Source: a virus | DNA: 20,080 nt | Strand: one strand, 5' to 3' | Virus record (IMG/VR): IMGVR_UViG_3300020421_000192 | Location: 1 to 20,080 of that record | Shown: in pieces, positions 2,728 through 17,955 of the stretch | Layout of the letters: the number at the start of each line of letters is the position of its first letter | Position numbering within the stretch: position 1 is the stretch's first letter | Notes under the pieces: model-generated | What the model saw: only the letters and a program-made list of their open reading frames with translations | Told to the model about the DNA's origin: nothing | The model's database searches: none | Position numbers and translations under genes: made by a program

Positions 2728-3738
2728 TTATCCTAATACGATATCGACATTATCCATAGCCCACTGACCAAACTCAGGTGTATCTTGAATCTCTGGCTTG
2801 ATCTTTCTGGCTTCCATGATACTTGTTACAGCATACTCACTTGGTAAACGACCAAGATACTTCATCACATTACCCATGTTATCAACATTAATCCAGTGTG
2901 CTAACCCTACAGCAATAGCATACTTTGCACTAGGATTCTCTGGAATCATAGTTTTCATAGGATTCTTGATGCAATCCTCTGGGTCTGGCACTTGATCTGC
3001 TATCTTCTCGTGACTTATAAACTCTGCAGCAACACCCTCACCAACAAGAGAAGCATACAACTGGAACCTTATCGAATCACTTGGATTACCTTGCCTTACT
3101 TGAGAAAGTTTGTACCATGATCTAGGTGTAGGATAAGCCCATGAGCCACCCTTTTCGGAAATTTTGTGCATCAAATCAGAGTGCGACTTAAGAAATGATG
3201 TCACGATAGTATCCGCACCTTTCTTAATAAAGTAAGTAATGATCTCTGACGCATCAACAATCACCTCAGCATGAGCAAACCTGTCCTTGAGTGGGGCAGA
3301 TAAACCACGATTGATACCGCCATGCTCTTTCTTGTTTCCCATTGCTACTATATGCCAACCATCTGGCAATACATAAGAGCCAACTCTACGCTCAAGAATT
3401 AGTTGTTGGATAGCAGTTAGCACCGCAGTTGTACCATCAAGAACCTCATCAAGAATAAATAGACCTGTCTTACCATCTCTATCCTCATCGGGTAGTAAGT
3501 CTGGCGTAGCAAAACGAGTGCGCCCATCTAGCACTTGAGGCACACCCATTACATCTACTGGATCAAGTTGAGACACCCTAACATCTTTTACATTACCTAA
3601 AAGTTCTAGCCCAGTTTCAGTAACCATCTCTGTCTTACCAATCCCTGGCAGTCCAGTAAACAAACAAGTAAACCCATACTTATGTGACGCTTTCAAAAAC
3701 TCAGGGATTTGACTAGGTGTTATAGTAACTTCTGACAT
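2728..3738 (-). CDS. MoxR-like AAA+ ATPase
   Basis: This 336-aa protein carries the full AAA+ ATPase signature set. The Walker A is GLPGIGKT at 29-36, the Walker B LFILDE at 93-98, sensor 1 lies in AMGNKKEHGG (132-141), and an arginine-finger-like PLKDRF is at 149-154. The DPVDVMGVP segment (59-67) before Walker B is typical of MoxR/CbbQ-type ATPases. Such ATPases form hexameric rings that use ATP to remodel a partner protein, usually together with a VWA-domain protein; that partner is encoded two genes downstream. The start ATG has a CGGAG SD seven bases upstream. The gene begins 12 nt after the stop of the small acidic gene. The substrate in the infected cell is unknown. Confidence 0.93.
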   Translation of the reverse strand: MSEVTITPSQIPEFLKASHKYGFTCLFTGLPGIGKTEMVTETGLELLGNVKDVRVSQLDPVDVMGVPQVLDGRTRFATPDLLPDEDRDGKTGLFILDEVLDGTTAVLTAIQQLILERRVGSYVLPDGWHIVAMGNKKEHGGINRGLSAPLKDRFAHAEVIVDASEIITYFIKKGADTIVTSFLKSHSDLMHKISEKGGSWAYPTPRSWYKLSQVRQGNPSDSIRFQLYASLVGEGVAAEFISHEKIADQVPDPEDCIKNPMKTMIPENPSAKYAIAVGLAHWINVDNMGNVMKYLGRLPSEYAVTSIMEARKIKPEIQDTPEFGQWAMDNVDIVLG

Positions 3739-7031: not shown

Positions 7032-7072
7032 TTTATATGCTCCAGTTAATAGTTGATCGGATTGCGAGATTA

Positions 7073-7093
7073 CAATCCTACAAGACCATAAAC
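7073..7093. repeat. Right arm of 21-bp inverted repeat
   Basis: The reverse complement of this segment matches 6423-6443 at 20 of 21 positions. It lies about 40 bases upstream of the 186-aa gene start and overlaps the GGATTG/CAATCC hairpin at 7059-7078. Extension beyond 21 bp shows no further similarity. Confidence 0.6.
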
Positions 7094-7137
7094 GCTCTGC
7101 GTTGCTATTCTTCGCTAAGTCCTTCCTGCCTCATGGC

Positions 7138-7263
7138 TCAGACCTTTAAGGACACCAGACTTTTGCAAATGGTGCGGGCGCTGTAAACGCCTCGTTTATA
7201 TCCCTGCATGGGTAGCAACATCACCCGAGCCTTTCCGCACTTACCTTTTGAGGTGTAGAACAT
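7138..7263 (-). CDS. Possible basic small ORF, 41 aa
   Basis: A 42-codon frame begins at ATG 7263 (MFYTSKGKCGKARVMLLPMQ) after a GGTGG SD-like element and ends at TGA 7138-7140. It is basic, with two Cys. It lies in the otherwise gene-free leader of the leftward operon, where chance ORFs of this length are expected, so support is weak. No family recognised. Confidence 0.3.
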   Translation of the reverse strand: MFYTSKGKCGKARVMLLPMQGYKRGVYSARTICKSLVSLKV

Positions 7264-7542
7264 CCATCCACCGCACAAGCGGATAGAGCCGATTTAAAGT
7301 GTCAATGCTAGTCTATACAGTGGCATCAAAGGTAGACCATTAACGCGACAACTGATTAATAGCGCTGTTATTGCTGTATATAAGTGCGACTAACTCACTG
7401 CGGTACGCTCACAATGCTTTAGGTATCGAAACCGTTTATTCAGTGGTGCATTGTTAAAACCCTAAATGCGAACGGTACGCGACGCTTTAATACTTGTGCG
7501 CTTTGTTCCGCTCGGTAACTAAGTACATCAGCCACTAACAAC

Positions 7543-7571
7543 ATTATACCGCAATGCATTAGCCTATGCAA
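7543..7571 (-). promoter_or_regulatory. Sigma70-type promoter for the leftward operon
   Basis: Reading leftward, TTGCAT (7571-7566) is followed by exactly 17 bases and a perfect TATAAT (7548-7543). ATGCAA/TTGCAT repeats surround it (7566-7571, 7575-7580, 7599-7604), which may be operator half-sites or alternative -35 elements. It is the only strong leftward promoter that I see before the 186-aa gene. Confidence 0.65.
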
Positions 7572-7642
7572 CAAATGCAAGTTATTTAAAACGCTACTAT
7601 GCAAGGGTCTAGGGGGGGGTAGTATACTGAAGGTGAAAGTTT

Positions 7643-7698
7643 TGGAAGGTACTCCTGGGTGTGTGCCACAGCGTCCGAGGTTTAGGAGTCCCGTTCCA
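7643..7698. ncRNA. Strong foldback: candidate structured RNA
   Basis: Bases 7643-7656 pair with 7684-7698 as a 13-pair helix with one bulge and one mismatch (TGGAA..GG.ACTCCT against AGGAGT..CC.TTCCA). The 27-base apical part can form an inner TGTG/CACA stem. An outer GGGGGGG (7613-7619) can also face CCCGCCC (7699-7705) with one mismatch. A TATACT -10-like box lies at 7623-7628, but without a good -35. There is no T-run on either side, and tRNA arms do not fit. A 28-codon GTG-started frame also crosses the region (7633-7719) but lacks a separate SD. Confidence 0.4.
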
Positions 7699-7806
7699 CC
7701 CGCCCATATATATAAATAAAAAAAGGCATTAACACAACATTAAGCTGTTCCCAAGAGTTTATTAAGCTTTAGGTACCCCTACGTATAGGTTATTCTTTGT
7801 ATATAG

Positions 7807-7835
7807 CTAGGGAGCATGTTTTTAGTGTTCCCTGG
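7807..7835. repeat. Dyad GGGAGCA-N9-TGTTCCC, copy 2
   Basis: CTAGGGAGCA (7807-7816) can pair with TGTTCCCTGG (7826-7835) through a nine-base loop. The arms and the spacing equal the copy at 6090-6116, while the loop is T-rich here and A-rich there on the plus strand. Its right end runs into a GGAGG SD at 7834-7838, so on a rightward RNA the hairpin would partly mask that SD. Confidence 0.6.
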
Positions 7836-7845
7836 AGGTATAGAA

Positions 7846-7989
7846 TTGAAATTAGATGTGGGTATATCTATTGGTTATTGTCCCCCTATGGAATATTATA
7901 TTATGTTTACCTATATGGAGTATTGTCATATCTGGCTTAGCGGCAAAATTTTGGAAAGTGCGTTGCGTGTAGGCAGTGTCCGGGGCTAA
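7846..7989 (+). CDS. Possible 47-aa ORF with TTG start
   Basis: A 47-codon frame opens at TTG 7846 (MKLDVGISIGYCPPMEYYIM at the N-terminus) and stops at TAA 7987-7989. A GGAGG SD sits seven bases before the TTG, one of the best SD matches in this intergenic region, and the dyad at 7807-7835 abuts it. The peptide is rich in Tyr, Met and Cys and is not a clear membrane segment. No family recognised. A TTG start and short length keep confidence low, but the SD plus hairpin arrangement would make sense as a regulated small gene. Confidence 0.35.
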   Translation: MKLDVGISIGYCPPMEYYIMFTYMEYCHIWLSGKILESALRVGSVRG

Positions 7990-8045
7990 GAGACCTAGAA
8001 ATTTTTGATTCCAAATTTTTTGGGGGGTATATTTTTTATAAAAAG

Positions 8046-8180
8046 TTATTCAAAAGTTATACACAGGGTTATCCACAGGTAAAAAGTAGGTTAAATCTAT
8101 GATTATAAAGGGTAATCAGAAAGTTATCCACAGATAACCCCCTCCCTTATTATAATATATATATATTTATATTACTATAT
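8046..8180. other. Candidate replication origin with DnaA boxes
   Basis: Three perfect DnaA boxes (TTATNCACA) lie in the same orientation: TTATACACA 8057-8065, TTATCCACA 8069-8077 and TTATCCACA 8124-8132. A near-match, TTATTCAAA, precedes them at 8046-8054. The first three are spaced 11 and 12 bases, about one helical turn, apart. Immediately to the right is an uninterrupted AT-rich stretch (about 8147-8180, alternating T and A) that could serve as the unwinding element. The cluster lies between the divergent operons, where an origin is expected. This suggests initiation by host DnaA; no replication initiator gene is visible. Confidence 0.65.
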
Positions 8181-8265
8181 GGACAAAATTGGTAAGGATT
8201 TTCTTAGGTGCCTGGCTAATAAATTTGCTAACAGAATAAAAGTGTACACGTTTACCCCCCCAATA

Positions 8266-8274
8266 TGCTATAAT
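8266..8274 (+). promoter_or_regulatory. Extended -10 promoter for the rightward operon
   Basis: TGCTATAAT gives an extended -10 (TG at 8266-8267, TATAAT at 8269-8274). No good -35 is present at 17 bp; the spacer region holds a C7 run (8255-8261), and the nearest candidate, TGTACA (8243-8248), is 20 bp away. Transcription would start near 8281, just before the leader hairpin and about 97 bases before the first rightward gene. Confidence 0.55.
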
Positions 8275-8288
8275 ATAAGTAATGAATT

Positions 8289-15815: not shown

Positions 15816-16400
15816 ATGGCAAATTTAACATTAAGGCAAACAAAAGGTGCTCCTCTTACGTTTGAAGAGATGGATGACAACCTTAGTAACCTAAATAATG
15901 ATAAGCTAGAGATTATAAATAATCTTAATATCGCAAGCACAATGGATATTAATGCTGATTATATTGCTATGTACGATGCATCTACTGGCGAAAATAGAAA
16001 GATATTAGCTAATGCTACAGCTTTTTCAAATAGGACATTAGTTATTAAGGTTATCGCTGACGGTCTTCCTACTTATGTAGGTAACGGAATTGCAAGAATT
16101 GTTATGCCTTCCACATTTGACGGGCTTAGGCTCAATAATGTTGGAGGACATGTATATACAGCTGGGACAGGATCAACAACAAACATTCAAGTGCATAATC
16201 AAACTAAAGGTGTTGATATGTTAACCACCTTGTTAACTATTGATGCTGGAGAAAATGATAGTAAAGATGCGGCAACGGCTCCAGTTATTGGGGCAAACAG
16301 TTTAGTTAATGAGTTTGATGTAATAAGATTTGACATAGATCAAATAGGTTCTGGAACTGCTGCTCTTGGTTTAGAGCTTAGACTAGAGTTTCACGCTTGA
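15816..16400 (+). CDS. Tail-fibre/adhesin protein, 194 aa
   Basis: The N-terminus LTLRQTKGAPLTFEEMDDN (4-22) is a very common phage tail-fibre attachment motif ('LRqtKGspLT..EmDdN'). After a short linker comes a domain of about 120 residues rich in beta strands (VIKVIADGLPTYVGNGIARI, HVYTAGTGSTTNIQVHNQTK), ending LELRLEFHA, consistent with a small receptor-binding or jelly-roll-type domain. A GGAG SD precedes ATG 15816. It is the first in a chain of adhesin genes. Receptor unknown. Confidence 0.82.
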   Translation: MANLTLRQTKGAPLTFEEMDDNLSNLNNDKLEIINNLNIASTMDINADYIAMYDASTGENRKILANATAFSNRTLVIKVIADGLPTYVGNGIARIVMPSTFDGLRLNNVGGHVYTAGTGSTTNIQVHNQTKGVDMLTTLLTIDAGENDSKDAATAPVIGANSLVNEFDVIRFDIDQIGSGTAALGLELRLEFHA

Positions 16401-17236
16401 ATTCATTTAAAGGGTATCCTCCTTCTGTACAAGTTTTACAGCCAATTCCAGATGTATTTGTTGCTGTAAATTCAGATAAAGAAGAAATAAGAAATAATAT
16501 AAAGAGCAGTGTTTCTTTAGGATTGCCGCAGGTAAAACCATTTGAAACGCAGTGGGACAAAGAAATATGCCTTGTTACTGGCGGTCCATCACTTAAAGAT
16601 ACATTTAATATAGTAAAAGAAAGATACGAAGATGGTGTTCCAATTGTAACAGTAAATGGAACTTATCAATATTGTCTAGATAATGGAATTATTCCTAATG
16701 CTTTTATAATGCTAGACAGCAGAGAGTTTAATAAAAGATTTATTGAAACTCCAGTAGAAACATGTAAATACTTAATGGCATCTCAATGTCATCCAGAAGT
16801 ATTTAAAATGCTTTCAGGCCGCAATGTTTGGTTGTGGCATTGTGATACTCAAGAAGAAAACATAGACGTTCTTGAGGGTCAATACGGAAAAGCATACGAA
16901 GACTTCTTCCCTATTATGGGTGGCTCCACAGTAACACTTAGATCAATGCATTTGCTAAGAATTTTAGGATTTCATAAGTTTGAAATTTTTGGTTTTGATA
17001 GTTGTATTATGGATCATCATCATGCTTACGAGCAACCAGAAAATGATAAGGAAGAAGAGATAGATTTGGTTGTAGGTGGGAAGCAATTTAGATGCACTGT
17101 AGCCCATTATCATCAGGCAAAGGAGTTTGTTCAGTTAATAAGCGTTACAGGCTCAAGTTATGATCTTATTGTTCATGGCGAAGGACTTATATCACACATA
17201 ATTAAGAATCCAGAATCGTTAAAGGAGGCGGCTTAA
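16397..17236 (+). CDS. DUF115/MptE-like protein, putative glycosyltransferase
   Basis: The 279-aa protein has the signature of the DUF115 (6-hydroxymethylpterin pyrophosphokinase MptE-like) superfamily: a nucleotide-binding start CLVTGGPSLKD (58-68), then IVTVNGTY (83-90), FIMLDSRE (103-110), GGSTVTLR (175-182) and FGFDSCIMDHHHAY (198-211). In bacteria this fold is linked to flagellin or surface glycan modification (Maf-type) and sugar-phosphate transfer. It starts at TTG 16397, overlapping the preceding stop (TTGA). Its place inside the tail-adhesin chain suggests glycan modification of a virion protein or of host surface sugars; the substrate is unknown. Confidence 0.75.
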   Translation: MNSFKGYPPSVQVLQPIPDVFVAVNSDKEEIRNNIKSSVSLGLPQVKPFETQWDKEICLVTGGPSLKDTFNIVKERYEDGVPIVTVNGTYQYCLDNGIIPNAFIMLDSREFNKRFIETPVETCKYLMASQCHPEVFKMLSGRNVWLWHCDTQEENIDVLEGQYGKAYEDFFPIMGGSTVTLRSMHLLRILGFHKFEIFGFDSCIMDHHHAYEQPENDKEEEIDLVVGGKQFRCTVAHYHQAKEFVQLISVTGSSYDLIVHGEGLISHIIKNPESLKEAA

Positions 17237-17680
17237 ATGGCGGCTACAGCATGGAGTTTTTTCAACAGTTTTAGGGAGTACCTTGGTAATGGTCAGTTTG
17301 ACCTTGACGGTACTAGTGTTAAATTTTATATGGCATTGCATACCAGTGCCGCAAGTGCAAACGTAAACAACGTTGCATTATCTACTCAAGCCTCTCTAGC
17401 TAATGAAGTGGCTAACGGTAATGGGTATGCTACTGGAGGTAAATCAGTTTCTTCCAGAACATGGGCGTCAGCGGCAACAAACAAGTATCGGTTTGACTCG
17501 ACGGCTTGTGTATGGACTGCTACTGGTGGTGATGTATCTAATGTTAAATACGCTGTTATTTATCAGTCAGGTGGAAAACTAGTTTGCTTTTCTCGCTTGA
17601 CATCAAGCCAGTTTACATTAGCACAAAACAACACACTTACCGTAACGCCTAGCGCTACTGGTATTTTTGAACTTACGTAG
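17237..17680 (+). CDS. Virion structural protein, tail/adhesin type, 147 aa
   Basis: This 147-aa protein matches a phage structural family that I recognise from its order of motifs: AWSFFNSFREYLGNGQFDLD (5-24), VKFYMALHTS, LANEVANGNGYATGG (54-68), RTWA, VWTATGGDVSNVKYAVIY and a SGIFEL-like end (ATGIFELT). It is mainly beta, with no enzymatic residues. It follows the DUF115 gene directly and precedes more tail genes. Exact placement in the virion is unknown; tail decoration is the usual guess. Confidence 0.8.
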   Translation: MAATAWSFFNSFREYLGNGQFDLDGTSVKFYMALHTSAASANVNNVALSTQASLANEVANGNGYATGGKSVSSRTWASAATNKYRFDSTACVWTATGGDVSNVKYAVIYQSGGKLVCFSRLTSSQFTLAQNNTLTVTPSATGIFELT

Positions 17681-17688
17681 GGGGAGCT

Positions 17689-17955
17689 ATGGCACTAGAA
17701 AGCGCAAGTTGGGTAACTCAATTAGTAAACACAAACCCTACAGTTTCAGACCCTGTAGCAGAAGGCGATGACCATCTTAGAATGTTAAAAGTTGTTCTTA
17801 AGAATAGTTTTCCATCGTCATCTACTGCGGCTATAGTACCTAATATGTCTGGTCAGTCTGGAAAATATTTAACCACAGATGGCACTGATGCTTCTTGGGG
17901 AACCGTAACAGCGGCATCTCCTGGTTTTGCAGTTGCTATGGCTATTGCGTTATAG
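17689..17955 (+). CDS. Short tail-fibre-like protein, 88 aa
   Basis: The N-terminus has the 'W...LV.TNPT.SDP..EGDDHLRMLK' tail-fibre signature (SWVTQLVNTNPTVSDPVAEG and DDHLRMLKVVLKNSFPSSS). Full-length fibres continue into a long shaft; this one ends after KYLTTDGTDASWGTVTAASP and a short hydrophobic tail (FAVAMAIAL). It may be an intact mini-adaptor that attaches other subunits. A GGGGAGC SD lies just upstream of ATG 17689. Confidence 0.78.
   Translation: MALESASWVTQLVNTNPTVSDPVAEGDDHLRMLKVVLKNSFPSSSTAAIVPNMSGQSGKYLTTDGTDASWGTVTAASPGFAVAMAIAL

Follow-up and report, generated by a model that had tools for sequence, protein, structure and literature searches.

A putative Maf-type glycosyltransferase gene strictly linked to a fibre-adaptor-like gene in the tail block of marine phages

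The stretch of DNA analysed here (the window), a virus record of 20,080 bases, comes from an uncultured marine phage and contains a gene of the DUF115/MptE-like family (PF01973) whose product most resembles the Maf flagellin glycosyltransferase. The gene belongs to the core of a podovirus-like group of marine phages, called group 1 below, and its constant partner is the downstream gene for a 147-aa phrog_644 protein, not the upstream gene for a 194-aa protein. We propose that the product is a soluble Maf-type transferase which glycosylates a phage tail protein, likeliest the 147-aa protein and possibly the 194-aa protein, with a donor supplied by the host; in our judgement the chances that this proposal is right are about even. 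Table 1 lists the features concerned.

Table 1. Features of the tail block of the window, and GT9-like genes in group-1 records (loci L083-L093)
Feature	Position	Strand	Basis
194-aa protein, usual group-1 upstream neighbour, second candidate acceptor	15816..16400	+	position; distance correlation
TTGA, overlap of the DUF115 start with the stop of the 194-aa gene	16397..16400	+	sequence; same in relatives
Putative PF01973 (DUF115/MptE-like, Maf-type) glycosyltransferase, 279 aa, TTG start	16397..17236	+	PF01973, fold, conserved start, dN/dS
AAGGAGG ribosome-binding site of the 147-aa gene, within the last DUF115 codons (LKEAA)	17222..17228	+	sequence
147-aa phrog_644 protein, fibre/neck-adaptor-like, candidate acceptor	17237..17680	+	phrog_644 E 1.2e-18; linkage; fold
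88-aa tail protein, next in tail block	17689..17955	+	phrog_6465 tail protein E 1e-6
GT9-like (heptosyltransferase-like) gene	L083:2779-3870		
GT9-like gene	L086:9367-10437	-	
GT9-like gene	L089:1511-2590		
GT9-like gene	L093:16433-17506		

The DUF115 ORF is a real protein-coding gene under purifying selection. When compared with four relatives its dN/dS is about 0.065-0.11, and the gene is therefore kept as a protein. The TTG start (16397-16399) overlaps the TGA stop of the upstream ORF (16398-16400), so that the TTGA coupling described in the first-pass annotation is present in the sequence, and the same layout recurs in relatives. All 43 of the nearest relatives in IMG/VR, which are at least about 77% identical, have this start at the same position, with no alternative start close by.

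Searches of IMG/VR for relatives gave 118 stretches with the window protein as query and 170 with the alignment as query. Through a distant branch with about 43% DUF115 identity we reached group 2, another 90 stretches that encode relatives. Between the two groups TerL is 22.6% identical, and no similarity was detectable when their capsid genes were compared. In group 1, all TerL loci that extend for about 4.2 kb or more downstream have DUF115, and the 147-aa gene comes next wherever the DNA reaches it. Exactly one PF01973 gene was found in 18 of the 20 records searched and none in the other two, which may be fragments. Isolated Vibrio phages, for example 219E41.1, whose locus tags read PODOV, have a capsid gene with about 52% identity to that of group 1, which suggests that group 1 is a podovirus. 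The window protein and two group-2 members had no tblastn match in 50,697 phage records, and a search of the papers available for DUF115 or MptE-like together with phage returned nothing relevant; one apparent DUF115 match, in a BREX paper, was actually DUF1156. A first scan of genome contigs found no relatives, and a second found three MAG contigs (L303-L305), of which L305 is clearly a group-1 phage contig. This contig was binned in a MAG labelled Candidatus Thioglobus, the sole hint of a host, and binning is weak evidence.

The surroundings of DUF115 are tail genes, with phrog_6465 tail protein and phrog_863/6202 tail fibre matches, which agrees with the earlier description of the gene as embedded among tail-fibre genes. 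Among 148 distinct DUF115 genes, a phrog_644-like gene lies directly 3' in 138, one gene intervenes in 3, and no DNA is left in 7. A gene of this kind might equally have been met in non-tail contexts, but within the subfamily the tail linkage is strict, with phrog_644 next or one gene away in 141 of the 141 testable genes. All queries used to collect the sample were DUF115 proteins of this subfamily, so these counts apply to the subfamily and not to more distant PF01973 proteins. The same gene order is kept in the three MAG contigs and in the viral loci L308-L310. The junction is also alike: the AAGGAGG inside the end of DUF115 precedes the ATG of the 147-aa gene at 17237, similar junctions are found in L033, L049, L148 and L296, and they recur in group 2. 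In group 2 the gene upstream of DUF115 is itself of the phrog_644 family in nearly all loci.

The phrog_644 profile covers residues 1-146 of the 147-aa protein. Its predicted model is of middling confidence (pLDDT 69.7), and the top fold match, the GP4 fibre/fibre-tail adaptor 8JOU_a (Z 8.2 over 121 residues), is borderline and near chance level. The five top matches, all with borderline scores, are all phage parts, namely the GP4 adaptor, the Sf14 neck, the Bas63 connector, the HFTV1 tail and the phage 7-7-1 tail fibres; Foldseek gave an E of 0.17. Serine and threonine make up 24% of the protein, which is similar to the adjoining tail proteins and about twice the value for TerL.

The 194-aa protein, on the other hand, has no Pfam and no PHROG match, and its earlier description as a tail adhesin is therefore not established. 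The co-occurrence with DUF115 which had been expected of it stands only in part: it is the direct upstream neighbour in 64 of 81 distinct group-1 genes, but it lies elsewhere in the locus in 12, and it was found near DUF115 at none of the 67 group-2 genes. In a mirror-tree comparison, the DUF115 distances correlate with those of the 194-aa protein at r 0.75, of the 147-aa protein at 0.68 and of TerL at 0.38. The comparison does not single out an acceptor because linked genes are inherited together, and as it speaks for the 194-aa protein no less than for the 147-aa one, both stay candidate acceptors.

The 279-aa protein matches PF01973 MptE-like, for which the curated cut-off is 34.6 bits, with a score of 74.8 bits (E 9.1e-21), and the DUF115/MptE family assignment of the first-pass annotation is thus upheld. 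The match covers residues 34-204, Pfam gave no second domain in the 279 residues, and all 20 members of the sequence set A2 match the family. The predicted model of the protein is again of middling confidence (pLDDT 70.7, higher for residues 61-150). Structure comparison with Maf proteins had been recommended, and the Maf flagellin glycosyltransferase 5MU5 proved to be the best fold match of the model (Z 16.4, rmsd 3.3, 224 residues), followed by archaeal MptE 8SD5 (Z 13.2 over 192 residues). The order is the same by sequence, since a two-group profile reached 5MU5 at E 2.3e-4 and MptE at 0.093, and its alignment placed the GVD..HH of Maf opposite the GxDSC..HH of the phage proteins. Maf and the phage protein share the PF01973 core fold and a GxGPS-like loop. 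GT29 sialyltransferase chains scored Z 7-9, and Cst-II was absent among the matches listed; the PF01973 domain of Maf is described as resembling this sialyltransferase (PMC11339370). Maf differs from the phage protein in carrying extra N- and C-terminal domains (PMC11339370), whereas the phage protein is a stand-alone domain, and Maf acts on flagellin in a flagellar context, whereas the phage gene has tail genes on both sides.

MptE itself is an archaeal 6-hydroxymethyl-dihydropterin pyrophosphokinase, and the phage protein could in principle perform the same type of chemistry, transferring pyrophosphate from ATP to a pterin or other small molecule. The Pfam name and the shared PF01973 fold speak for this reading, but MptE falls behind Maf by both fold and sequence, the phage gene stands in a viral tail context, and neither the window nor the tail blocks that were read showed a recognisable pterin or folate gene near DUF115; we consider it very improbable. 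The name MptE-like is also attached, by annotation only, to the BFVD proteins A0A6J7XC21, A0A6J5PVH5 and A0A6J5L5C1 from uncultured Caudovirales, which are 28-33% identical to the phage protein over the domain in the fold alignment, but several of them are much longer (540-700 aa).

The motifs GGPSL and DSR are both present in the window protein. Their predicted conservation in relatives holds for the first Gly of GGPSL, Asp107 and Arg109, which are invariant across the two phage groups, and nearly so for the second Gly; the Pro and Ser of GGPSL and the middle Ser of DSR vary. Among the residues invariant in both groups, in window numbering, are N87, D107, R109, F111, N112, W147, H148, G175, G176, T178, R182, D201, S202, C203, H208, H209, Y211, Q213, E215 and N216. 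The polar residues N87, D107, R109, N112, H148, D201, H208, H209, Q213, E215 and N216 among them probably belong to the active site. Group 2 lacks the His237 and His239 found in group 1, so a Cst-II-like general base at this place is unsupported. Their absence would suit a non-catalytic protein, whose fold now serves as a chaperone or a structural piece of the fibre base, and so would the strict one-to-one linkage with a tail protein. Such an assembly role is improbable in our view, as the probable active-site polar residues are retained at 43% identity and the methyltransferase fusion described below suggests an enzyme pathway.

In 52 of 67 group-2 genes the DUF115 domain has a class-I methyltransferase domain fused to it or ending directly at it (METHYLTRANSFERASE link). 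In three group-1 genes, a separate methyltransferase gene lies between DUF115 and phrog_644 (186 aa in L042), and it is related to the fused domain of group 2 (BLASTP E 2e-7). The recurrence of a fused or adjacent methyltransferase in both groups suggests methylation of the DUF115 product or of its acceptor.

On the reading that we prefer, the Maf-type enzyme would be produced together with the tail genes, would be soluble and, in the host cytoplasm, would attach an activated sugar supplied by the host to one of the phage's tail proteins. We infer the acceptor from gene linkage, which makes the 147-aa protein encoded next the most likely one, perhaps with the 194-aa protein as well, and the donor from analogy with Maf. 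Flagellins are O-glycosylated with nonulosonic acids by Maf enzymes (PMC11339370), and the donor here may be a CMP-activated nonulosonic acid or Kdo. No CMP-sugar synthetase (PF02348) was found in 20 records, and such a donor would therefore have to come from the host. In relatives, the probable substrate of the fused or adjacent methyltransferase is the sugar or the same protein. Against this proposal we weighed the mirror-tree result, the model confidence of about pLDDT 70 for both proteins and the occurrence of phrog_644 in phages without this DUF115 family, including mycobacteriophages. In Teaspoon, the one mycobacteriophage region read, phrog_644 follows minor tail genes with no glycosyltransferase annotated alongside.

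Glycan modification encoded by phages is well known, and this general precedent also fits a different target. During infection the enzyme could act on LPS or capsule glycans at the host surface, excluding other phages or altering receptors, with its position in the tail block incidental; the LPS Kdo transferase WaaZ is found among the weak NCBIfam matches and PF01973 relatives (E 0.0069). However, the strict tie to one tail protein in unrelated phages and the universal presence of DUF115 in group 1 are better explained by a role in the virion than by a host-specific one at the cell surface, and the protein has no strongly hydrophobic segment (highest 19-residue hydropathy mean 0.97). We therefore regard modification of the host surface as unlikely.

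Virion glycosylation is a kind of modification that is already known. The mycobacteriophages Che8, Rita and their relatives, cited in PMC11256854, encode glycosyltransferases and carry sugars on virion proteins. The glycosylated proteins there are major capsid proteins, whereas here the linked gene is fibre/neck-adaptor-like, the enzyme is of PF01973 and glycosylation is predicted. The enzyme family and the fibre-adaptor linkage are the new part. More tentatively, and at somewhat less than an even chance, a dedicated tail-glycosylation cassette may be common to unrelated aquatic phages, made up of a Maf-type transferase, an optional methyltransferase and a fibre-adaptor acceptor with its ribosome-binding site inside the enzyme gene.

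Other genes were seen in the window and in relatives. The GT9-like gene of Table 1, which encodes about 360 aa, is found a short way past the capsid gene in each of the four group-1 records holding that region and might be a second virion glycosyltransferase. It was set aside as a member of the shared cassette because only one of the four members tested gave a Pfam match, which was below the cut-off (E 4.4e-4), a sequence search of the PDB gave nothing significant, and inspection by eye of G021, a group-2 record, showed no such gene. On the minus strand of the window, positions 664-1806 and 2728-3738 appear by sequence to encode a VWA/metallopeptidase-like protein and a MoxR-type AAA ATPase, separated by a 310-aa gene, and similar genes are also present in records G001, G004 and G021. 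About 1.2 kb of the window (~7032-8281) between the leftward and rightward gene blocks has no long ORFs and is possibly a regulatory or origin region. The fibre region of record G005 (L093:3694-9219) holds several non-structural-looking genes, one of them flavin-halogenase-like by eye, and the 59.5-kb record G001 has a gene (L082:1607-2191) that is peptide-deformylase-like by its motif GIGLAATQVN.

If the proposal is true, many uncultured marine and freshwater phages would carry a protein-glycosylation system directed at their own tail, and a simple pair of enzyme and acceptor would be available for testing. The system would offer a possible reason for the tuning of fibre-receptor binding or for hiding from host defences, and it would provide a working annotation for phage proteins that are presently misnamed as pterin kinases.
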